A DNA stretch of 64,000 nucleotides, taken from contig NZ_CP039852.1 in the NCBI RefSeq assembly GCF_006228385.1, forward strand, positions 806,001 to 870,000, written 5' to 3'. Below, piece after piece: positions 52,307-63,870 of the stretch. Positions within the stretch are counted from its first letter, which is position 1. Each line of letters opens with the position of its first letter. Source of the DNA: Salinimonas iocasae. Its GTDB lineage: Bacteria > Pseudomonadota > Gammaproteobacteria > Enterobacterales > Alteromonadaceae. The notes below the pieces were generated by a model. It saw nothing but the letters and a program-made list of their open reading frames with translations. It was not told the DNA's origin and searched no databases. Both the position numbers and the translations under genes were made by a program.

Positions 52307-52440
52307 CTAAAGAAGCGATAGGTCACGTTAATGTGTATTAACATGACTTATTATTTTCTATTTGGAAACAGATAGATATTTTCATTTAGCCGTTTATACT
52401 CGTCGTAAGCGCAGTATTTATTCTTTGCAAGCGGACGGCT

Positions 52441-53727
52441 ATGGCAACACAAATCGCACGACATAATGTAGACGACTCTCTCTACGTATTTCTCCAAGAC
52501 AACAGCAAGAAGTGGTATGCACGCTTTCAGCTATTCGGGACTTGGTATTGCAAGTCAACCAAGCAAGTAGATAAAGACGAAGCTATCGCGGCAGCGCGTC
52601 TGCTACGTATGGAATGGAAGATAAAGGCCGAAACCGGAACGCTGACCAGGAGTAAGCGGTTTCGAGATGTCGCGAACCTTGCTATTACCAATATGGAACA
52701 TGCGCTATTACACGGCGGCGGTAAGGTAAGCTTTAAAGATTACATCGGCGCGCTGAAGCGCTATCACATCCCATTCTTCGACAGAACCTATGTCACATCG
52801 ATAGATCAGCAAAAGGTAAAAGAGTTTGAAATCTGGCGGATCAAGAAAGCCGGTCGGCTACTTAACAAGTCAACGCTGCTTAATCACAATGCCGCATTGC
52901 AGATGGTCTTTAAGGAAGCCGTTGAAAAGCAATGGATGCTAGCAGTACAAGTTCCGGTGCTTAGTGCTACAGGAGAGCAGGGCGCAAGAAGAGCGGCTTT
53001 CACGCGTGAAGAATACGAGCAGGTATTAGAAACTATAGAGTCGATGCGTGATAACAGTCGAAAAGATAAGACTCGCCAGATCCGTGAGCTATTACTGGAT
53101 TATGCAGAAATTGTTGTTAACACCGGTATTCGGCCTGGAACTGAGATGGAAGAACTGACCTGGGGTGACATTGAGATGACACGCCAAGACCACCAAGTCA
53201 TCTTCAAAATCAAAATCCGAAAGGGCAAGACGACAAAGCATACCGGTACAAGAACGGTCGTGTGTAAAGACGATATTGTATATCCGCTCATGGAGCTGAG
53301 AGATCGCTTTCCAAATCGAAAGCCCAATGACAAACTGTTCAGGCTTGCTGATGGAAGCACTACAAAAGAACTGGGACGGACGTTCAGCGCTGCACTTGAT
53401 GAATGTGAGTTAAGAAGTAGCTCTGACGGCCCCAGATCGCTTTATTCGTTACGACATACCTACATCACTTGGCAGTTACTGAGCCGTCACCTACGCATTG
53501 ACGTGCTTGCGAGGCAATGCGGAACCAGTACAGCCATGATTGAGCAGCACTATAGCCACGTTGTGCCAAGCATGTTTGAAGAAGAACTATCTGGCGTGAC
53601 CTTCGACAAACAGGCTGCTAAAAAGAAAAGTAAACGAGCATTAGCTCGTGAGAGAAAAACTAAAGATGTCCTACTCAAACGCTTTGCAGAATGGGAAGCG
53701 GAGTATAGAAAGCGAGGCTGTATTTAA
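52441..53727 (+). CDS. Tyrosine recombinase (phage-type integrase)
   Basis: A 428-residue integrase. N-terminal residues about 15-60 are an arm-binding-like region (KKWYARFQLFGTWYCKST); a core-binding SAM-like domain follows (about 80-170). Catalytic residues: Arg in NTGIRPGTEMEELTW (near 229), Lys in KIRKGKTTKHTGTR, YSLRHTY (HxxR box, with Tyr in place of the first His), and nucleophile Tyr in EQHYSHV (near 370). It is the best candidate for the integrase of island 2 at tRNA-Leu. Ribosome-binding site is weak. Confidence 0.88.
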   Translation: MATQIARHNVDDSLYVFLQDNSKKWYARFQLFGTWYCKSTKQVDKDEAIAAARLLRMEWKIKAETGTLTRSKRFRDVANLAITNMEHALLHGGGKVSFKDYIGALKRYHIPFFDRTYVTSIDQQKVKEFEIWRIKKAGRLLNKSTLLNHNAALQMVFKEAVEKQWMLAVQVPVLSATGEQGARRAAFTREEYEQVLETIESMRDNSRKDKTRQIRELLLDYAEIVVNTGIRPGTEMEELTWGDIEMTRQDHQVIFKIKIRKGKTTKHTGTRTVVCKDDIVYPLMELRDRFPNRKPNDKLFRLADGSTTKELGRTFSAALDECELRSSSDGPRSLYSLRHTYITWQLLSRHLRIDVLARQCGTSTAMIEQHYSHVVPSMFEEELSGVTFDKQAAKKKSKRALARERKTKDVLLKRFAEWEAEYRKRGCI

Positions 53728-54189
53728 GTGGCTGATGCGATTAATCTCAGTGATTTTAACTCGATATGTCAAATGTACTGAAAAAGTCGCGGCCTAGCCA
53801 GACAGGCAGCAATGAGCGTATATCATGCCACGGTTTCCTAATATGGTCTATTTTTAGCCCCTAAATAACCGCCGCGTCAAAAGTATTGAAATTGGCGCCG
53901 GCCACTCATGGTAAGCTCATCTCTACAAAATTGTACACTTAGCTATTGTTTTGGGTAATTAAGTCGTTTAGTGTCACTTAGATAAAGAAAAATAGAAATC
54001 AGATACTCTGCCTCATTGAAGCTTACTGAGCATGCTAAAATTACTTTTGGTTGTCACAAGAATTTGAGGGATAAATGTTGTATTTATCAGTAGCTTGATA
54101 TCGTATTTTTCGATTGAATGAATTATATGATAAGCATCCACGGTATGCGTAGGTGGTATAGAAAAAATTTGACTCTAGAAGGAAAAATT
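53728..54189. other. Intergenic region
   Basis: No gene or clear motif is visible between the integrase and the SIR2-domain gene. It probably contains the promoter of the latter. Confidence 0.4.
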
Positions 54190-55764
54190 GTGACTTTTAA
54201 AAAGCTTCTTTCCGATCATTTTAATAAGTTTTCCGCGTCTCCTTTCCTGTTTGTAGGATCAGGCATGTCTCGTCGCTATTTGGGCGCGGAAAACTGGGAA
54301 GATCTTTTGAAGAAGTTTTGTGAAATAATTGGTGAAAATTACACAAAAATTAGATCACAAGCTGATGGGGATTTGACAAAAATAGCGAGTGTTCTATCCA
54401 AATCCTACAGCGAAAAGTGGTGGGACAGTGAGATTAAAGGCGAAAAAGATATTCAATATTCTGAACATCTTTTGAAATCAGACTCGCCATTGAAAGTGGA
54501 AATATCAAGCTATTTAAAAGAAATTCATGAGAACGTAAACGAAGATTATAGGGAGGAAATAGAACTCTTAAAGTCAAGTAAAATTGATGGTGTTATAACT
54601 ACCAATTGGGATCTTTTTTTGGAGTCAATTTTCAGTGAATTTTCTGTCTTTATTGGACAGGAAGGATTGTTTGCAAGTAGAAATTATGGGGTCGCCGAAA
54701 TATACAAGATTCATGGTAGTTGCAATGACCCAAACAGTCTAGTTTTAACTCAAGAGGACTATGAAAAGTTTAAAAAAAAGAATCCATATTTATCATCTAA
54801 GTTGTTAACAATATTTGTTGAGCACCCCATTATATTTCTCGGGTACTCTCTTACAGATCCGCACATATTAGGAATTTTAGAAGAGATTGTTGAGTGTATG
54901 CCAGAAAGCAAAATGGATGCTCTTAAGGAGAACATCATCTTTGTTGAATGGGATCCTGACTTGGATGAGCCAACTTTGACAGAGTCAGTTTTGCTAAAAA
55001 CATTGCCAGTAAATCTTATCCGGGCTGCGTCTTATCGAGATATATTTGAAGTTTTGTCTGAGGTCAAGCGTCGGATACCAGCGCATATCTTTCGACAGAT
55101 TAAAGATGAGTTATATGAGCTCATAATAACCAACGACCCCAAAGGGAAGTTGTATGTTAAAGAGGCCCAAGATATAGGAGCTTTAGAGGGACAACAAGAG
55201 TTTGTGGTTGGATACGGTGCCATTAGCAAGATAAAAAAGTCTGAGGAAATGGCGAAGCAAGGTCTCGTTGGTTTATCACGAGAAGATATTGTACGAGATG
55301 TTATTTTTGACAATGGTGGTTACGACTCAGCTTCGATCGTCTTTGATGTTTTTCCAAAACTGATTAAAGGTCAGATAAATATCCCTGTATTTAAGTATCT
55401 TAACACTGCAGGTTTAATTGACGAAGATGGTAAGGTAAATGAAAGCGGTCTCTGTGATTCATTGGCAATTAGGGTAGGACATAACGTCGAACATTATCGG
55501 CCCCGAGGCTCCGAAGAAAGGCGAGCGGGTACAATTCCACAAGTCAAAAAAGGTATTGAAGAGTTATATAACACTGTCGGTTTTAATCTTTTTTTGCGCA
55601 TGGCGGTGTTCGTACCGCCGAGGATCTTAGACTTGGATGCTCTCGAAAAAATTCTTAAAAAGCATGCAGATGATGACTTTTCACCGGGCGAAAAAAGTCA
55701 ATTTATTAAGATCGTATGTGTTTACGATTTGGTTAAATATTCACGAAGATATGGTTTTGCATAA
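54190..55764 (+). CDS. SIR2-domain protein, probable anti-phage NADase
   Basis: About 524 residues from GTG 54190, chosen because GAAGGA lies 6 bases upstream and no ribosome-binding site precedes ATG 54118. The SIR2-like domain (about 1-290) has FLFVGSGMSRRYLG (NAD loop), ITTNWDLFLE, KIHGSCNDPNSLVL (catalytic His) and IFLGYSLTDPHILG. The C-terminal 230 residues have no recognised domain. Stand-alone SIR2 proteins of this layout deplete NAD+ after phage sensing. The gene is AT-rich and in an island, as expected for defence. Confidence 0.8.
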   Translation: MTFKKLLSDHFNKFSASPFLFVGSGMSRRYLGAENWEDLLKKFCEIIGENYTKIRSQADGDLTKIASVLSKSYSEKWWDSEIKGEKDIQYSEHLLKSDSPLKVEISSYLKEIHENVNEDYREEIELLKSSKIDGVITTNWDLFLESIFSEFSVFIGQEGLFASRNYGVAEIYKIHGSCNDPNSLVLTQEDYEKFKKKNPYLSSKLLTIFVEHPIIFLGYSLTDPHILGILEEIVECMPESKMDALKENIIFVEWDPDLDEPTLTESVLLKTLPVNLIRAASYRDIFEVLSEVKRRIPAHIFRQIKDELYELIITNDPKGKLYVKEAQDIGALEGQQEFVVGYGAISKIKKSEEMAKQGLVGLSREDIVRDVIFDNGGYDSASIVFDVFPKLIKGQINIPVFKYLNTAGLIDEDGKVNESGLCDSLAIRVGHNVEHYRPRGSEERRAGTIPQVKKGIEELYNTVGFNLFLRMAVFVPPRILDLDALEKILKKHADDDFSPGEKSQFIKIVCVYDLVKYSRRYGFA

Positions 55765-55859: not shown

Positions 55860-55893
55860 TTATTAACAGTCGCGAATTCGCGACTGTTAATAA
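55860..55893. repeat. 34-bp perfect palindrome, left copy
   Basis: TTATTAA + core CAGTCGCGAATTCGCGACTG + TTAATAA, perfectly self-complementary over 34 bp. It sits between the ends of the convergent SIR2 gene and replication-initiator gene. The core is identical to that at 60303-60322; the arms are different but again complementary. Confidence 0.9.
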
Positions 55894-55902
55894 CGAATGG
55901 AA

Positions 55903-56862
55903 CTAGGCTACGACAAGTAGCTCTTTCAGTTGGCCTAACTGCTCCTGAAATGAATTTTCTATTTTGGACTTGAACTCTGAACTTTTAATTAATTTTCGCT
56001 TGGTCATGCGTTTTGAAAGTATTCTGTGATCTTCGTCGTCCAGCAATGTAAGTGCTTTTCCGATACCGTATTTGATGATTAGTGCATAAATCCTTTCTGG
56101 CATTTTGAGCAAGATTTTAGGATCATAAAAAGATACACCCTGGAAGGAATACTTCTGCTCATCCATTTCGGCCACTTTGAACATTGATTTAGCCCCTCTA
56201 GCTCTTGGTTTATGCTGCTTTTCAATCCGTGTGTACTCGCGATAGCTGCGATAACCGCCTCCTTGCTCAAGCACTTTGTCATAAAAAATAATAGGGCAGC
56301 CAAGTTTTGTGCCGTAGCGAAAGCCTGTAAATATGGTCTTATTAAAAAATGCTTCGTAAGGCGAGCGGTAGGCGTAGTCTGTAATGATATGTTGTATAGG
56401 AATGTCTGGAAGATCCATAGCATAATCGACTCGTGTTACGTTCGCCCGTAACATCCAGAGTCTATAATTACTCTCACCCCATAAGTCCATGATCAAGCCA
56501 AGACTTGTTGCCATTCTGCCGGGCCCAACAGAGTTGGGGTTGAATACGATTTTCACTTGGTTCTGGCGTTTATTAAGACCGAAGAGGAGTACACTTAAAG
56601 TTGAGTCATTGGAGAAGTGGAAATCAAGCCTTCTCTTAAACTTTTGACTGCCAGCATCCTTCCCAGTTAGGTTTGTGAGCTTGACTGAATAGTCAGCTGT
56701 TCTTTGCCTCTGCAAGGCCAACAGTTTCTTTGCCTCATCCTCAGGTACTGGTAATGTGATTGACAACATATCTATTGATATATGTCCATATACATCAGGC
56801 CTGTCGAGTATCTGAGATAATAAAAACGAACTTCTTTCAACTTTCTTTAAACTTGTATTCAC
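55903..56862 (-). CDS. Probable replication-initiation protein (Rep_trans-like)
   Basis: A 319-residue protein starting at GTG 56862. The pattern NVTRVDYAMDLPD (middle), PIIFYDKVLEQ and EYTRIEKQHKPR is characteristic of replication initiation factors of the pT181/CTX-type (Rep_trans) group, which nick the origin with a tyrosine for rolling-circle replication. The N- and C-terminal 90 residues are unassigned. It ends 10 bases from the left palindrome, which could be its target or its terminator. Confidence 0.6.
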   Translation of the reverse strand: MNTSLKKVERSSFLLSQILDRPDVYGHISIDMLSITLPVPEDEAKKLLALQRQRTADYSVKLTNLTGKDAGSQKFKRRLDFHFSNDSTLSVLLFGLNKRQNQVKIVFNPNSVGPGRMATSLGLIMDLWGESNYRLWMLRANVTRVDYAMDLPDIPIQHIITDYAYRSPYEAFFNKTIFTGFRYGTKLGCPIIFYDKVLEQGGGYRSYREYTRIEKQHKPRARGAKSMFKVAEMDEQKYSFQGVSFYDPKILLKMPERIYALIIKYGIGKALTLLDDEDHRILSKRMTKRKLIKSSEFKSKIENSFQEQLGQLKELLVVA

Positions 56863-56927
56863 AATAATCTCACTATTAGTACAGCGTTAATAATGAAATT
56901 ATTATTTTTAAAATATTTAGTTGATTT

Positions 56928-57332
56928 TTAACCTCCTAGTTTTTCAAGTAAAGACTTGTACTCTGCTCTCTTTAGCAGTTTTATCTTTACTCCCCTTTTC
57001 TCACCATGTTTGTCTATCAGGTTTGCTTTTTCATACTCGTAAACCAAAAATCCATGATGATTTAGTGATTTAAGGGCCTCGGACATTCCATTGTTTGAAA
57101 ACTTTTCTCTACCAGAGAAACCTTGCACCTTTTCAGCTATATGCGAAAGGCTTTTAATAAAGTACTTGTACTTCAAAAAACCTACTTTTCCCTGAAGAGT
57201 AAGATATAAACCTACTTCAAGCCCCTGTTTAGTTAACCGGTATGCGTCATCTTCTAGGTTAGATAACTTTACAAGACACTGAATCATAAGTCCTCGACGG
57301 GATCGCATAAAAGTTCTTGATGTTAGTTTCAC
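56928..57332 (-). CDS. Small helix-turn-helix-like protein
   Basis: A 134-residue basic protein starting at GTG 57332 after GAGGAAAGG. Segments NNGMSEALKSLNHHGFLVYE and YEKANLIDKHGEKRGVKIKL suggest a winged helix (replicative or regulatory). It is 65 bases upstream of the initiator gene on the same strand. It may be a copy-number regulator or replication accessory; unrecognised. Confidence 0.5.
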   Translation of the reverse strand: MKLTSRTFMRSRRGLMIQCLVKLSNLEDDAYRLTKQGLEVGLYLTLQGKVGFLKYKYFIKSLSHIAEKVQGFSGREKFSNNGMSEALKSLNHHGFLVYEYEKANLIDKHGEKRGVKIKLLKRAEYKSLLEKLGG

Positions 57333-57509
57333 AAACCTTTCCTCATAAAGTCCATATCTTCTTTACGTTATCAACTAATGGCTCGACTTGTTAATCGAAT
57401 CAGTAGGAAAAGTCAAGATTTGAGTAAAGCTTCGAGATTTCCGAAGCCTCAGCAGCGCGGTTGCATTCAATGTAGTCTTAACTTTTGCCGGAACAATGTT
57501 GGAGGACGT

Positions 57510-58277
57510 ATGACGAACAATATCATCAATGAGTGGGAGCCTATTAGGCAGATAAGGAACAATAAAGTAATGTCAGATGAACTTTACTGGTCACATAAGA
57601 AATTGATTTCAACTTCGCCACCAGACCTATGCAGAAGAGCGTTGTTCGATATCCATACGTTCTCAGGGTTTGAAAAGGAGAGATTTAAAACAATTACTGA
57701 TTTTCTTAAAAGTATTCACGGGTTGTATGCAAGATCCTATATGGACAGTCTCCTGGCAGCGAACGCCGAAGCTACCGTCTTCGATGAAAACGCTGTTGGG
57801 AATATTGATGTAGCAGCAGCTATTGCATTGAGACAAATCATGCATTGTAGGACCTCTATCAACAAAGTTAAAAGTTACATGGCTGATAAAGGGCTAGATT
57901 GGTCATTCGTAAATACTCAAGAGGCTATTGATATGTCTTGTGACTTGTCAGAGGTAAAAAGCAAAAAGAAAACTTCCGTATGCAGAAGAAAACGTTTATC
58001 CGAGAGAGAAAGAGTAAGTAAATACATTAACAGCCTAACTCCTATGGAAAAAGTAAGCTTTCTTGAAAGTTTTATTGAAGAGACTAGTCTCAAGGATATA
58101 GCAAATAATCTAAGTTCATTGATTAATGCTAAGTCAAGAATAATCCAAACAATTAATTGCTGCGAAAAAATGCTACGCGAAAATGCGCAAATGATTTTAG
58201 ACCCATCTTTATGTGATAATGCCACATATTACGTTAACACTGAATTGCTTAACCATTTAGGAGATAGAAATGAATGA
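57510..58277 (+). CDS. Hypothetical protein of the replication module
   Basis: A 255-residue protein from ATG 57510, where GGAGG precedes it. It is basic in the middle (SKKKTSVCRRKRLSERERVS) and helical. No family is recognised. It is divergent from the initiator pair and overlaps the next gene by 8 bases, so the two are translationally coupled. Confidence 0.6.
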   Translation: MTNNIINEWEPIRQIRNNKVMSDELYWSHKKLISTSPPDLCRRALFDIHTFSGFEKERFKTITDFLKSIHGLYARSYMDSLLAANAEATVFDENAVGNIDVAAAIALRQIMHCRTSINKVKSYMADKGLDWSFVNTQEAIDMSCDLSEVKSKKKTSVCRRKRLSERERVSKYINSLTPMEKVSFLESFIEETSLKDIANNLSSLINAKSRIIQTINCCEKMLRENAQMILDPSLCDNATYYVNTELLNHLGDRNE

Positions 58278-58506
58278 GATAGATCAGCTAGCTGAAAATG
58301 ATGAAGAACTTAAAAACTTATGCGATATCAACTCTGTGGACTATTCCTATCAAAATGAGGATAAATCTTTATTGCTCGAAAGAATTAATTCAATCGATGA
58401 GAATGCAGAAAAGGAAAGAAAAATACTATATTGTGTTGCTATGTTTCGACTCTACGAAATATTAGGTTTCGAAAGTCTAAAGTCATTGCTCCCGAATTCA
58501 GATAAT
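58270..58506 (+). pseudogene. 5' part of gene split by IS30-family element
   Basis: Starts MNEIDQLAENDEELKNLCDI after TAGGAG and runs 79 codons (to LLPNSDN) before the IS. The same frame, resumed after the IS, continues as the protein at 59564-60269. Acidic and helical; unrecognised. Confidence 0.6.
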
Positions 58507-59563
58507 AAGTGCACCACTCATGGTTAACGGGTGATAGATGATCAACTGCCTGTTGGTGGTATTCTAAAGTCGCCAAACAATTAGAGTATTACCATGAGTT
58601 ACAAGCAGTTGATCGAGGGACAACGATACCAGATTGAGGCCTACTTACGCGAGGGTTTCAGTTATCGGGAGATCGGAAAACGTCTGAGCGTGAGTCACAG
58701 CACAATCAGCCGGGAAGTAAATCGCAATAGAATTCGGGATAACCACTATTTGCCGGAAGTCGCTCAGGCAAAAGCACTGAAGCGCCGCAGCCAGGCCGCA
58801 AAGTTCAGGATATCTGAACTGACGATTACCTTTGTTGAGTTCGGGCTGAACCAGAAATGGAGCCCTGAGCAGATTGCTGGTGTAGGTAAAATCATCGGTC
58901 ATCACGTCAGTCACGAATGGATTTATCGCTACGTCCAGCGTGATAAATTACGTGGCGGTAGGTTGTACAAACAGCTGCGCCAGAGTCACAGAAGGTATCG
59001 TAAAGGTGACCGTGCGAAGCGGATAATTATCCCGAATCGCGTTGGCATTGAGCATCGTCCCGCTATCGTGAACAAGAAAAAGCGGTTCGGTGACTGGGAA
59101 GCTGACACGGTTCTGGGCAAGCAAGGAACGGGCGCGATTGTTAGTTTAGTCGAGCGCAAAAGTAAGCTTTACCTGATACGCAAAGTGCCAGCGAAAAGCG
59201 CAGCAGACGTGGCCCGAGCCATGGTTGGGATGCTCTGGAAATATCGAGGTCATGTCCGAACAATCACAGCGGACAACGGCAGCGAATTCTGTGACCACGC
59301 GCTGGTCGCTGAGAAGCTCAAAACCAATATCTACTTCGCGAATCCGTACTCATCATGGGAACGCGGACTGAATGAGAACTTCAACGGTTTACTGCGCCAG
59401 TACATCCGGAAAGGCACCGATTTACGGACGGTATCGGATAGGCAAATTAGTGAAATAGAGCGGGCATTAAATGCCAGACCGAGAAAGTGCCTCGGCTTCA
59501 GGCAACCTGTTGCGGTATTCAATGAATTACGCAAGGCTGCCTAATTTAGCGAGTGGTGCACTT
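58507..59563 (+). mobile_element. IS30-family insertion sequence
   Basis: About 1057 bp with 13-bp perfect terminal inverted repeats: AAGTGCACCACTC at 58507-58519 and GAGTGGTGCACTT at 59551-59563. No target duplication is visible. It encodes one transposase and interrupts a gene. Confidence 0.85.
58594..59544 (+). CDS. IS30-family transposase
   Basis: A 316-residue transposase. An N-terminal HTH (FSYREIGKRLSVSHSTISRE) is followed by the DDE catalytic domain: GDWEADTVLG (Asp), TITADNGSEF (Asp) and SSWERGLNENFNGLLRQYI (Glu), the last being the IS30 hallmark. Intact, so the element may be active. Confidence 0.93.
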   Translation: MSYKQLIEGQRYQIEAYLREGFSYREIGKRLSVSHSTISREVNRNRIRDNHYLPEVAQAKALKRRSQAAKFRISELTITFVEFGLNQKWSPEQIAGVGKIIGHHVSHEWIYRYVQRDKLRGGRLYKQLRQSHRRYRKGDRAKRIIIPNRVGIEHRPAIVNKKKRFGDWEADTVLGKQGTGAIVSLVERKSKLYLIRKVPAKSAADVARAMVGMLWKYRGHVRTITADNGSEFCDHALVAEKLKTNIYFANPYSSWERGLNENFNGLLRQYIRKGTDLRTVSDRQISEIERALNARPRKCLGFRQPVAVFNELRKAA

Positions 59564-60269
59564 CGGAGTTGAATTCGCGCTTCATTCAAATTATATTACC
59601 TCTAAATGCGCCCAAGAATGTTACAAACAAATAAATAGGGCAAAGTTCGAGCTAATGATTCATGGAGGTGATTTTAATAGTGTCGGTCGAATGCCTTCTT
59701 CTCATTTAGATATGTTCTCTTTAATACCCACAGACAGTAAGACATCGTCTGAGCTTACTGCGAGAGTAAAATCGGTTTATAACGAGCTTTATGTGGAAAA
59801 GTGTAAAGGTGATACCGTTACAGCAAGTCTCGTAAAGGAACACATATTGGAGAAATTTCAGGAAAAAAAAGCCTCGAAAATTGCTTCAAACACATCCCGC
59901 AATAATGATACTGAATGTAGCCCGAAGGACCCAACATTAGACTGGGAGGAGGATGACCTGAAAGCCCCCTGCCAAAGCGATAGTGACAAAACAGTTACAA
60001 GCTTAAATACTTTAGATAACGGTTCCACATCTAAGTCTCCTGAAGAATTAGTTGTTACTAAGGAAAGCCTTCCAACCTTGATAGATCACCTTTCCAATAC
60101 TTTGGATAACGATGGGAAGATAAGGCTCGCTTTCAAACTCAATCAAAGTCTTTTGAACTCGGGAGATGTAACATTGCAACTTCTTCTAAAAGACAATCGC
60201 TGTAAGGTTAAATCAAAGAAAGATGCACTGTTAAAAATGATTGAATATCGAAATAAATTGGCATCATAA
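59564..60269 (+). pseudogene. 3' part of the IS-split gene
   Basis: About 235 codons in frame with GVEFALHSNYITSKCAQECY. If the IS is removed between 58507 and 59563 (with about one base ambiguity) it joins in frame to the 58270 segment, giving a protein of about 315 residues. The C-terminal half is Ser/Thr-rich then helical. No family is recognised and no start codon with ribosome-binding site is visible here. Confidence 0.55.
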
Positions 60270-60296
60270 GATAGTTTGGAAATTCTATATATTCTG

Positions 60297-60328
60297 ATAT
60301 GTCAGTCGCGAATTCGCGACTGACATAT
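60297..60328. repeat. 32-bp perfect palindrome, right copy
   Basis: ATATGT + core CAGTCGCGAATTCGCGACTG + ACATAT. It lies between the split gene and the recombinase gene, both plus-strand. See the left copy at 55860. Confidence 0.9.
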
Positions 60329-60449
60329 GTATACTAGTTTGATACAAAATCACCGTATATCTGCTCAATACCCGCTGCTATTCTGTCTACAGCTTATTCA
60401 AGCAATTCAATCACTTCATTCATTTAAACGTCATAATCGGAACAAACAC

Positions 60450-61367
60450 ATGGATACAGCATGTCCTTACACGCTGTACTTAGGGCGACTTGCGCCCAAT
60501 AGTCAGCGCTCCATTGCGTCACAACTGAATAGCATTGCAGAACTTCTGAATTGGCCTGAACAGGGTAGGGCAGACTTGTTTGCTGGTATCGATTACCAGC
60601 AGGCCAGCCACATTCAAGCGTTATTGCTTAAGAAAGGCTGGTCTGCACGTTCAATCAACAGAGCCATGGCCGCGATACGCAATATCGTAAAAATCGCGGT
60701 AATGTCTGGCAAAGCACCTGAAATGCAAGCGCTACAACTGCAGACAATATCAAAGGTTAAACATGGTAGTCACCGTGGCACGCCATTGTCGGTTATACAG
60801 GTTGAAAAGCTCTTCGATACATTGAGTAGAAATGACTCACTTATTGGCATTCGTGACAGTACCATTTTCTCGGTGTTACTCGGCACAGGTCTACGGCGTA
60901 GCGAACTGGTTGCACTTTCGTATGCTGATTACTCACCAGAGAACAAGACATTATTCATTCGCCAGGGTAAAGGCAACAAAAGCCGGATCGTATATTTGCC
61001 TGACTGGGTGAAACGGTCTGTCAGTCAATGGCTCACAATCAGAGGTACTGGGCGAGGCCCATTATTTGTGCGTATCGCCAGAGGCGGTCACGTTCAGCTT
61101 GAAAGCCCACTCTCAGCGAGTTTCATCTATTCACTGGTACGAAAGACATTGGCCTCTATTGGTGTAGAAGGTGTATCCCCGCATGACTTGCGCCGGACCT
61201 TTATTACCCGCCTTCTTGAACAAAATGTTGATTTAAACACGGCTCGTCAGATGGCAGGCCATGCTGATGTGTCAACTACCGTTGTGTATGACAAGCGCCA
61301 TGAAAAAGTGATGAAGGCTGCTGCGGCCAACCTTGCATACGATAGCAATGGTGACAAGCATGAATAG
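60450..61367 (+). CDS. Tyrosine recombinase (XerC/D-like) of the AAA+ operon
   Basis: About 305 residues from ATG 60450 (upstream ATG 60327 lies in the palindrome and adds no domain). The core-binding domain is about 25-105; catalytic residues are Arg in LLGTGLRRSELVALS, Lys in RQGKGNKSRIVYLP, HDLRRTF, His in MAGHADVS and Tyr in TTVVYDKR. It is smaller than the integrase at 52441 and lacks an arm-binding extension. It overlaps the AAA+ gene by 8 bases. It may recombine at the palindrome or act as a resolvase for the element. Confidence 0.87.
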   Translation: MDTACPYTLYLGRLAPNSQRSIASQLNSIAELLNWPEQGRADLFAGIDYQQASHIQALLLKKGWSARSINRAMAAIRNIVKIAVMSGKAPEMQALQLQTISKVKHGSHRGTPLSVIQVEKLFDTLSRNDSLIGIRDSTIFSVLLGTGLRRSELVALSYADYSPENKTLFIRQGKGNKSRIVYLPDWVKRSVSQWLTIRGTGRGPLFVRIARGGHVQLESPLSASFIYSLVRKTLASIGVEGVSPHDLRRTFITRLLEQNVDLNTARQMAGHADVSTTVVYDKRHEKVMKAAAANLAYDSNGDKHE

Positions 61368-63384
61368 GTTTCGAGAACGGTATAAGCTCAATTATCTCGC
61401 GTGCGCATGGGCAAAAAGGTTACTTGAGTATATAGATAAGCCCGACAGCGATCTGCTGGATGCTACCACGCTTTGCGCTATAACCGGACAACGTCAATTA
61501 AGTGGTGAGCAGCTAAAAGTAAACTCAAAACGCAGTGCGGTTAACTTCTTTTCTATTACTGACAAGCGCCCAGCGACCACACAGCTTTGCGTTACCAATT
61601 GCCAGTTTATTGAGAAAGAGCTGGCATTAGCGAAGAACGCTGCTCTTCTTATTGAATATGTTGTCGTCGCGCATGCCAACCCTGCTTTTCTCCAATTCTC
61701 AGACTTGTTGGTCGGGCAGTTACATTACGCACAGGTGAGTACGTTACTACAGGATATATGTAAGCTTACCTCTGATGATTACGAGCGCACGCTCAAACAA
61801 CTTACCAGAGCTGGCATATTACGAAAGCCTAATCTGAATGTACTGTTTGGTGATGAACTACCGGACTACCTGTTACATAGCCTGCTCACGCAGAAAGTTG
61901 AGAACAAACAGCAGCTCATCGCACCGTTACTGCATAAAAGCCAAACTGCGCAATTCAGCTTAAACGCGTTTCCACAAGTTGATGGGTTTCGCATAAGGGA
62001 CTATTTCAAATCAGCCGTAAAACAAGGGCTCAAAGGCATCAATGTATTGCTTTACGGTGAATCCGGTACCGGCAAAACGGAGCTTGCCCGTACATTGGCC
62101 AAAGAGCTTGGACATGTACTTTACGAGGTTCGGTCGACGGCACTGAATGAGACGAAAAGTACCGATGATTTCGAGACTAAGTATCCAGATAAGGAGCGGT
62201 TACGCTACCTATCTATGATCAGTAACTTGCTATCAAGCAGCTCAAAGTCTCTGCTACTGATTGATGAATGCGAGACGATTTTTGAACATGCCTGCTACCA
62301 GTACAGCAAAGAGCACCTTCAGCGATTGGTAGAAGATAATGATATTCCATGTATCTGGATAACCAATCACATCGATTATCTGGAGCCCAGCTTTATTCGG
62401 CGCTTCAAGCTTATCACTGAAGTACCACGACCAACGCCTGAAGATATCGCGGCCATTTGCAAGCCACACTTCAAAGGCTTGTCGTTGTCATCGGACTTTA
62501 AACGAACGGTAACGCGCGTGAACAATATTTCGCCTGCCATAATAGCAAATGCTGCACATGTAGCTAAAACCCTGCATACAGCGTATACCGAAGCGGAGAA
62601 CGTTATATACGAAACCGTTGAGGCAACACTGCGTGCAGCCGGACAGTGGGAAAGTAAACTTCAGTATCAACACGCCCTGAAGTTCGACTTTCCACTATTT
62701 AACATCAAGCAGTCCAGAAGCTACCTCGATGACATCCAGCACGCGTTAGACAATGATTCTTCAGTACGTGTGTTGCTATCAGGGCCACCTGGTACTGGCA
62801 AAACTGCGTTTGTTCATCATCTGGCAGAACAACATCACCGTGAGCTTATTCACGTAAAAGCATCGGATGTGCTTAGCAAGTGGGTGGGCGAGAGTGAGCA
62901 AAACATTGCCGCCATATTTGAAGCAGCGCACACCGACGAAAAGATGATCCTTTTAGACGAGGTAGATAGTTTACTCACTAGCCGTGAGTCGTTGAACGCT
63001 CATCATGAGCTGCAATTGGTGAACGAGTTGCTTACTCAGATTGAATCGTGCTCACAACCGCTTTTCGCAGCGACCAACCTTGAAAGCCGACTGGATCACG
63101 CCGTGCTCCGGCGCTTCGACTTCAAACTGCAATGTACTTATCTAACGTTCGCTCAAGTGCTTCAGTTGTACAAGCAATCGCTCGGTATCAAAACGGTTAA
63201 GAAAGCTGAGCAACAGGCCTTGGCTGAGCTAACTCAACTAACACCCGGCGACTTTGCCATTCTGACAAGACGCAAACAATTTAGAACCAAACAAAATCAC
63301 AGACTATCTGCCATCACCTTGTTGGCAGAAGAAAACCAGCGCAAGCAAACCAAACCACAAATGGGCTTTATTCGCCCGAACTAA
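61360..63384 (+). CDS. Tandem double-AAA+ ATPase
   Basis: About 674 residues. The N-terminal 220 residues are helical and unassigned. AAA+ domain 1 has Walker A GESGTGKT (near residue 233), Walker B LLLIDECE and RRF (arginine finger region); domain 2 has GPPGTGKT (near 475), Walker B MILLDEVDSLL and RRFDFKL. Both look active. The layout resembles FtsH/VPS4/Cdc48-like remodelling ATPases. ATG 61360 overlaps the recombinase stop, so it is translated with it; ATG 61348 is an alternative. Confidence 0.85.
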   Translation: MNRFRERYKLNYLACAWAKRLLEYIDKPDSDLLDATTLCAITGQRQLSGEQLKVNSKRSAVNFFSITDKRPATTQLCVTNCQFIEKELALAKNAALLIEYVVVAHANPAFLQFSDLLVGQLHYAQVSTLLQDICKLTSDDYERTLKQLTRAGILRKPNLNVLFGDELPDYLLHSLLTQKVENKQQLIAPLLHKSQTAQFSLNAFPQVDGFRIRDYFKSAVKQGLKGINVLLYGESGTGKTELARTLAKELGHVLYEVRSTALNETKSTDDFETKYPDKERLRYLSMISNLLSSSSKSLLLIDECETIFEHACYQYSKEHLQRLVEDNDIPCIWITNHIDYLEPSFIRRFKLITEVPRPTPEDIAAICKPHFKGLSLSSDFKRTVTRVNNISPAIIANAAHVAKTLHTAYTEAENVIYETVEATLRAAGQWESKLQYQHALKFDFPLFNIKQSRSYLDDIQHALDNDSSVRVLLSGPPGTGKTAFVHHLAEQHHRELIHVKASDVLSKWVGESEQNIAAIFEAAHTDEKMILLDEVDSLLTSRESLNAHHELQLVNELLTQIESCSQPLFAATNLESRLDHAVLRRFDFKLQCTYLTFAQVLQLYKQSLGIKTVKKAEQQALAELTQLTPGDFAILTRRKQFRTKQNHRLSAITLLAEENQRKQTKPQMGFIRPN

Positions 63385-63402: not shown

Positions 63403-63870
63403 ATGACTACATCAGTATTGAGTTCGCTCAAGGTCACCGCTCGTCCAAAACTTGAGTCCAAGCCGCCCGTTATCGGTAAACGCATGAAGCTCATCGAGAA
63501 GCTGGAACAGCAGCAGGAGATGGCAACATGCATGATTGAAAGACGGCCTTTCGAAGCCTATCGCGAGAAAATGATCAAAGACCCAGAGACCGGCGAGCGC
63601 AAAAAGGAACGTCGTCAAATCACCGTCCGGCCTTGGTACTACGACAGTGATGGTCACTTTTACTTAGAAGTTAAAGTCAACAACAAACCGATAGAGTTTG
63701 ATACCGGGAAGCCAGCAATCGATGTCGGTGAAGCCAGTAAGATCCCTGAGACAATCGCTACAGTGATTGAGGCAGTTGAAAAAGGTGAGCTTGATACGTA
63801 TTTGCTCGCTCCGGCCAAAAGCACTAAAAAGCCCGCCAACGAGAAGCAACCTGCCAAACCCAAAAGCTAA
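63403..63870 (+). CDS. DUF6641-like small protein
   Basis: A 155-residue basic protein. The pattern SLKVTARPKLESKPPVIGKR, then KLIEKLEQQQEMATCMIERR, RPWYYDSDGHFYLEVKVNNK and PIEFDTGKPAIDVGEASKIP fits DUF6641 as I recall it, a small plasmid/ICE-borne family. The C-terminal tail is Lys/Pro-rich. GAGGT precedes the ATG. It follows the AAA+ gene by 18 bases and probably works with it. Confidence 0.6.
   Translation: MTTSVLSSLKVTARPKLESKPPVIGKRMKLIEKLEQQQEMATCMIERRPFEAYREKMIKDPETGERKKERRQITVRPWYYDSDGHFYLEVKVNNKPIEFDTGKPAIDVGEASKIPETIATVIEAVEKGELDTYLLAPAKSTKKPANEKQPAKPKS

Follow-up and report, generated by a model that had tools for sequence, protein, structure and literature searches.

Two perfect palindromes that share one core bracket a replication module in Salinimonas iocasae (contig NZ_CP039852.1, positions 806,001 to 870,000; we refer to this whole stretch of 64,000 nucleotides as the window), directly upstream of the gene for a XerC-like tyrosine recombinase. 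We favor, with moderate confidence, the explanation that the palindromes are predicted sequence-specific binding sites of one or both of two module proteins, p318 and p299, with a ParB/KorB-like helix-turn-helix (HTH), and that they are neither the ends of a mobile element nor the site nicked by the replication initiator (Rep). This preference follows from the conservation of the core, from its presence alongside p299/p318 instead of Rep, and from the palindromes of other sequence that some sister modules carry.

Paired palindromes around a replication module

The left palindrome (34 bp, 55860..55893) lies 3′ of rep, and the right one (32 bp, 60297..60328) lies 3′ of p318; neither is assigned to a strand. 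Both have zero central spacer, and in a search of the window for inverted repeats (arms of at least 14 nt, distance of at most 60), they were the only fully complementary pairs among the 14 repeats listed. Their shared 20-bp core, CAGTCGCGAATTCGCGACTG, gave two matches in the window at up to three mismatches, versus none in 100 shuffles, and a search of the 4.16-Mb genome that allowed up to two mismatches returned these two sites only. Both palindromes are real, far beyond chance. A first-pass annotation of this DNA had placed a Rep-like gene and further module genes between them and the start of the recombinase 121 bp past the right copy; we confirm both points, with the recombinase ATG set at 60450 by alignment with relatives, and add an IS30 insertion between the palindromes that the annotation did not mention.

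Reading from the left, the module holds rep (55903..56862, minus strand), which encodes a Rep_trans-like initiator of 319 amino acids as judged by clustering and motif residues; p134 (56928..57332, minus strand), a predicted winged-helix DNA-binding protein; p299 (57378..58277, plus strand), a remote relative of a ParB-like accessory family whose start codon may lie further in; and p318, which is interrupted by the IS30-family insertion sequence and thereby divided into an N-terminal piece (58270..58527, plus strand) and a C-terminal piece (59553..60269, plus strand) whose homology starts shortly before an HTH-like segment. The insertion sequence (58493..59577, plus strand; ends approximate) carries a transposase (58594-59544) and Pfam HTH_38 and rve matches, has inverted repeats at 58493-58519/59551-59577, and finds a 97.3% DNA match in a plasmid of Alteromonas sp. 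RKMC-009; it cuts p318 shortly before the HTH-like segment. Because of this insertion, the core-to-core spacing is larger in the window (4436 bp) than in three relatives (3298-3387 bp).

We looked for the same arrangement in two overlapping samples, 295 genomes drawn from the family and 59 from the genus. The exact 18-bp core occurs in three of the family genomes, the same three that have a strong homologue of Rep; a Rep match of any strength at E ≤ 1e-3 is found in 10. The order palindrome, rep (minus), p134 (minus), p299 (plus), p318 (plus), palindrome, recombinase is the same in the window, Alteromonas marina, Paraglaciecola algarum, and Planctobacterium marinum, and at all four loci this module, which we call type A, stands directly upstream of the same recombinase. 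All 18 bp of the core are exact in seven of the eight type A copies; the right copy of Planctobacterium has one mismatch. The p318 gene is intact in A. marina and Paraglaciecola. The earlier proposal that palindromes with a conserved core bracket a replication module thus holds in four of four close relatives, with the right copy adjoining both the recombinase and a real module junction.

The first-pass annotation had raised the possibility of a sequence widespread in the genus, and we rejected such a common repeat, as the exact 16-mer is present in just 4 of the 59 genus genomes, two of them with paired modules. The single 16-mer copies in two genomes (G680 and G691, contig C2) lie inside an AAA gene and are read as codons. 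The 16-bp core is read as codons within the AAA gene of four backbones (L066, L068, where it is a second copy, L115, and L098), and we judge it to be probably a coding coincidence there, since the flanking codons are equally conserved. A scan of genome contigs for the core returned nine stretches, five from relatives (including the A. marina pair) and four from unrelated taxa; we set the latter aside, with ~3.7 expected by chance in 257 Gb. Among viral contigs, the core 16-mer appeared in one stretch, and no relatives of Rep or the recombinase were confirmed. Across the order, alignments of Rep were obtained in 7 of 394 genomes and of p134 in 2 of 394, in each case including the genome itself and otherwise weak, and a search of PLSDB for a free plasmid form of Rep gave no match.

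Co-occurrence of palindromes with ParB-like accessory proteins

Two loci separate the palindrome from Rep, one in each direction. L114 encodes a Rep that is 46-48% identical to those of type A and a remote p134 relative (hhalign 74%), and has no palindrome; a profile check at this locus found nothing like p299, p318, or protein cluster c2 (at most 0.5%). At L068, Rep is just 23-27% identical over part of its length, homologues of p134, p299, and p318 are present, and a single 32-bp palindrome stands inside the module, with rep on one side and p125, the p134 homologue, on the other. The palindrome tracks p299/p318 rather than Rep, with one locus each way.

Some of the other modules found at this recombinase have palindromes of other sequence. 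We delimited 32 modules (111.8 kb, left limits set by hand) at 32 of 37 oriented loci, leaving out AMAR, which duplicates L116, L109-L111, which seem to share the L058 module, and L069, which has no recognized Rep upstream (two GAGCTC-centered palindromes lie 5.1-5.4 kb downstream in L069). Perfect palindromes of at least 18 bp numbered 17, in 12 of the modules, versus 0.525 on average and at most 2 in 40 shuffles, and 140 kb of the backbone described below contained none. The center is GAATTC or GAGCTC in 14 of the 17, and perfect palindromes with these centers occur in 7 of the 28 modules other than type A. Examples are AGTCGCGAATTCGCGACT in type A, AACTGTGAGCTCACAGTT in L057, AATCCTGAGCTCAGGATT in L059, which recurs in L062 with one central mismatch, CAATCGCGAGCTCGCGATTG in L073, and AATTGCGAGCTCGCAATT in L072. 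Many are placed 3′ of a gene; those of L057, L059, and L073 lie upstream of the rep operon.

Perfect palindromes centered on GARYTC are enriched where ParB-like accessory proteins (clusters c2, c5, c8, and c14) are encoded: 9 of 14 such modules have one, versus 2 of the 18 others (Fisher, 0.0025; 0.018 when type A is collapsed; 0.043 when four short modules are left out as well). Two observations weigh against this association, namely, that the remaining 5 of the 14 modules have no palindrome of this kind and that one is present in L078 and in L081, where no ParB-like protein was detected. As to the proteins themselves, cluster c8, to which p299 belongs, matches cluster c2 in hhalign at 87%, and a structural model of the A. 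marina p318 bears a weak resemblance to the DNA-binding domain of ParB/Noc/KorB; a sequence search against solved structures gave nothing credible. Both p299 and p318 are remote relatives of a family whose modeled domain weakly resembles that of ParB/Noc/KorB.

In the explanation that we favor, p318 and/or p299 would bind the palindromes. With one site on either side of the module, the right one 121 bp before the recombinase gene begins, binding could lead to silencing or coordination of the kind known from KorB operators, the putative targets in the integrated state being the recombinase and the replication module. Put differently, the palindromes may serve as operators or loading sites at which one or more KorB-like proteins of the same module act.

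Replication hairpins, element ends, and other explanations

The palindromes might instead be hairpins of a rolling-circle double- or single-strand origin (dso/sso) or terminator, at which Rep makes its nick or the single strand that is displaced folds, with two copies freeing the 3.4-kb module as a circle. We consider this unlikely, although the module does encode a Rep_trans-like initiator, and Rep_trans origins work via an extruded hairpin with the nick motif CT'AA, as described in PMC5775427 and PMC9371924. The window Rep matches no Pfam family at E ≤ 0.1; it falls in one cluster with 27 further Rep-like proteins (counting A. marina once). One of these, the L076 Rep, matches PF02486 at 1.7e-4, and the L057 Rep does so at 0.0059, both below the curated cut-off. 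Of the Rep_trans active-site motifs RxD, T/SxY/ExG, YxKxxE, and W/LxRxE, as given in PMC5714925, a three-row alignment displays invariant RVD, YDK..E, and TR.E residues, an altered motif II (FRYG or FRFG), and a Y in motif IV where the family has W/L.

The arms of the palindromes speak in part for a hairpin. As the first-pass annotation had noted, the two window copies have differing yet self-complementary arms, and complementarity runs 8 and 7 pairs past the 18-bp core, as it does for 8 pairs in L068; taken as RNA, these three copies fold into long hairpins. Pooled over nine copies, 46 of 90 flanking positions pair, versus a mean of 23.7 around random centers (0 of 20,000 as high). The annotation had read such compensatory arms as a sign that a hairpin is the functional form; this argument is weakened, in spite of the symmetry above chance, by six of the nine copies, which extend by just 2, 4, 3, 0, 2, and 0 pairs. 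The symmetry past the core is real overall and strong in three copies only; template-switching correction or selection for a hairpin could each be its cause.

Against nicking by Rep at these sites, the palindromes lack the CT'AA motif, and the L114 locus, with its similar Rep, does without them, which does not support a site belonging to Rep itself. A better candidate for an origin, or for a rep leader, is a conserved noncoding block directly upstream of rep (56860..56901, minus strand), because, from sequence comparison, it goes with Rep, including at the palindrome-free L114. This block is strongly alike in the four type A loci and weaker, yet recognizable, in L114, making five loci with type A Rep in all. 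CTAA is present in the block of the window and of A. marina and Planctobacterium, although not in that of L027 or L114; in A. marina and Planctobacterium it lies within a 6-bp inverted repeat made up of A/T only, whereas the Rep_trans nick site is expected in a G/C-rich hairpin loop.

It is improbable, in our assessment, that the palindromes terminate a mobile element or serve the neighboring recombinase for crossover, as had also been proposed. The module is bracketed at all four type A loci, and close relatives part at a sharp junction ~11-22 bp from the right core. In the window, this junction is marked by a signature (60340..60353, plus strand), TCGGTACAAAACAGCCG in several relatives, with homology to genome G278 from 60343, and the sharp break recurs in six close pairs besides G278. 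In Planctobacterium, moreover, the left core lies 22 bp past a flagellin stop codon, and the flanking sequences make up a 43-nt, 74% inverted repeat (a CCGAG-N14-core flank is found only there). The L068 palindrome, however, is single and internal, between rep and p125; there is no central spacer, versus the 6-8 bp center of Xer/tyrosine-recombinase core sites; the junction lies beyond the right core; other module types reach the same junction with no palindrome there; and the four close Rep homologues all stand beside the recombinase.

We likewise see little chance that the palindromes terminate transcription in both directions where the two divergent operons end. The type A copies do come after stop codons, of rep on the left and of p318 on the right, the one in L068 comes after p125, and a weak terminator-like match lies on the plus strand at 55906-55922, 13 bp from the left palindrome. 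Yet no such match overlaps any palindrome, only 1 of 18 eight-base tails (nine copies) has five T, the palindromes of L057, L059, and L073 lie upstream of operons, and a terminator would conserve pairing and not an exact sequence of 16-18 bp. Binding of the type A palindrome by p134 instead of p299/p318 is very improbable: p134 is present in five of five modules with the core and has a predicted winged-helix fold with DNA-binding neighbors and a conserved segment (residues 73-87), but L114 has a remote p134 relative without a palindrome, and phmmer clustering found no p134 relative in L059, L062, or L073, which have palindromes of their own.

A conserved backbone with differing modules, and its known counterparts

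The recombinase (60450..61367, plus strand; PF00589, 1.9e-29) matches the NCBIfam XerC profile at 6e-38, below that profile's cut-off. Homologues at E ≤ 1e-60 occur in 24 of the 295 family genomes and 14 of the 59 genus genomes, and among 28 loci compared, it is accompanied by a DUF6641 gene in 28 and by an AAA gene and a 136-aa gene in 26 each. Together these form a conserved backbone, represented in the window by an AAA ATPase with two AAA matches (61333..63384, plus strand; PF00004, 4.8e-43) and a DUF6641 protein (63403..63870, plus strand; PF20346, 4.5e-7). The 136-aa protein was absent from the phage records searched and the DUF6641 protein from the plasmids searched; none of the recombinase matches, present in 150 phage records, reached 60% identity, those listed being ~24-33%. 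At six loci (L036, L046, L047, L056, L104, and L105; genomes G149, G146 twice, G242, G666, and G688), the recombinase match spans one in-frame TAA.

In seven close pairs with 89.7-95.5% DNA identity over the backbone, likeness begins ~103-128 bp upstream of the recombinase, and the genes further left differ; in L071, L072, and L076, which adjoin flagellin genes, it resumes only at the flagellin stop codon. Modules also lie behind flagellin genes in L028 and L073. The Reps of the modules are Rep_trans-like; some carry a fused UvrD-type helicase, and some have DUF3987 proteins next to them. One can imagine the backbone as an integron-like platform on which the recombinase would swap rolling-circle replication modules as wholes, at a fixed position ~110 bp ahead of its gene. 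Each module would bring its palindrome and the ParB-like protein cognate to it, a tag that both identifies the captured replicon and silences it; we regard this scenario as quite unlikely. Against universal exchange, a single module seems to be common to L058 and L109-L111.

Further genes surround the module. A SIR2-like gene (Pfam; 54118-55764) lies between an integrase and the left palindrome, and in its place we noted, by eye, defense-like genes in P. algarum (a fusion of reverse transcriptase and protease) and A. marina (an ATPase and HNH-like pair); L030 has, again by eye, restriction-endonuclease-like and HipA-like genes (L030:4730-6388) downstream of the 136-aa gene. A 26-bp inverted site (52322-52347), GTCACGTTAA-N6-TTAACATGAC, adjoins the 428-aa integrase (52441-53727) and resembles a tyrosine-recombinase core site, and similar sites occur next to the left palindrome of A. 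marina and in L058, L059, L063, L076, and L079.

Overall, these loci point to a family of integrated elements, found in marine Alteromonadaceae, in which closely related members differ by entire replication modules. Some modules pair their own palindromic site with a putative DNA-binding partner and so offer natural protein/site pairs for the evolution of ParB/KorB-like specificity and for studying how integrated replicons stay silent. A literature search, whose reach did not extend to most subscription-journal papers, returned no description of this element and none of DUF6641.

Modular integrative elements with defense cargo, such as Gamma-Mobile-Trio, also combine a tyrosine recombinase with defense-type genes nearby (here, SIR2-like by Pfam and restriction-like by eye). 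They differ in that the recombinase scores far under the cut-offs of the GmtY and GmtZ profiles, the backbone genes are others, and the replication module is variable here. The KorB operators (OB) of the IncP plasmid RK2 and parS/Noc sites are likewise palindromic or near-palindromic and are bound there by HTH proteins; the site sequence here, however, is unrelated to parS or OB as given in PMC11790492 and PMC7022226, and varies by module type. In p318, the matched domain starts at residue 28-46, which leaves no room for the N-terminal CTP domain of the ParB family, and no ParA-type match was found among the window module proteins in the Pfam scan. Because this domain is lacking and binding is a prediction, we do not claim ParB/KorB membership for p318/p299. 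With the Rep_trans rolling-circle replicons (the pT181 family and the MobT elements ICEBs1/Tn916/ICESt3), the window Rep shares the RxD, YxKxxE, and RxE residues, whereas it has no Pfam match and the palindromes neither contain CT'AA nor track Rep. Integrated elements with a rolling-circle initiator of their own are known among integrative mobilizable and integrative conjugative elements (IMEs/ICEs), according to PMC5704250.

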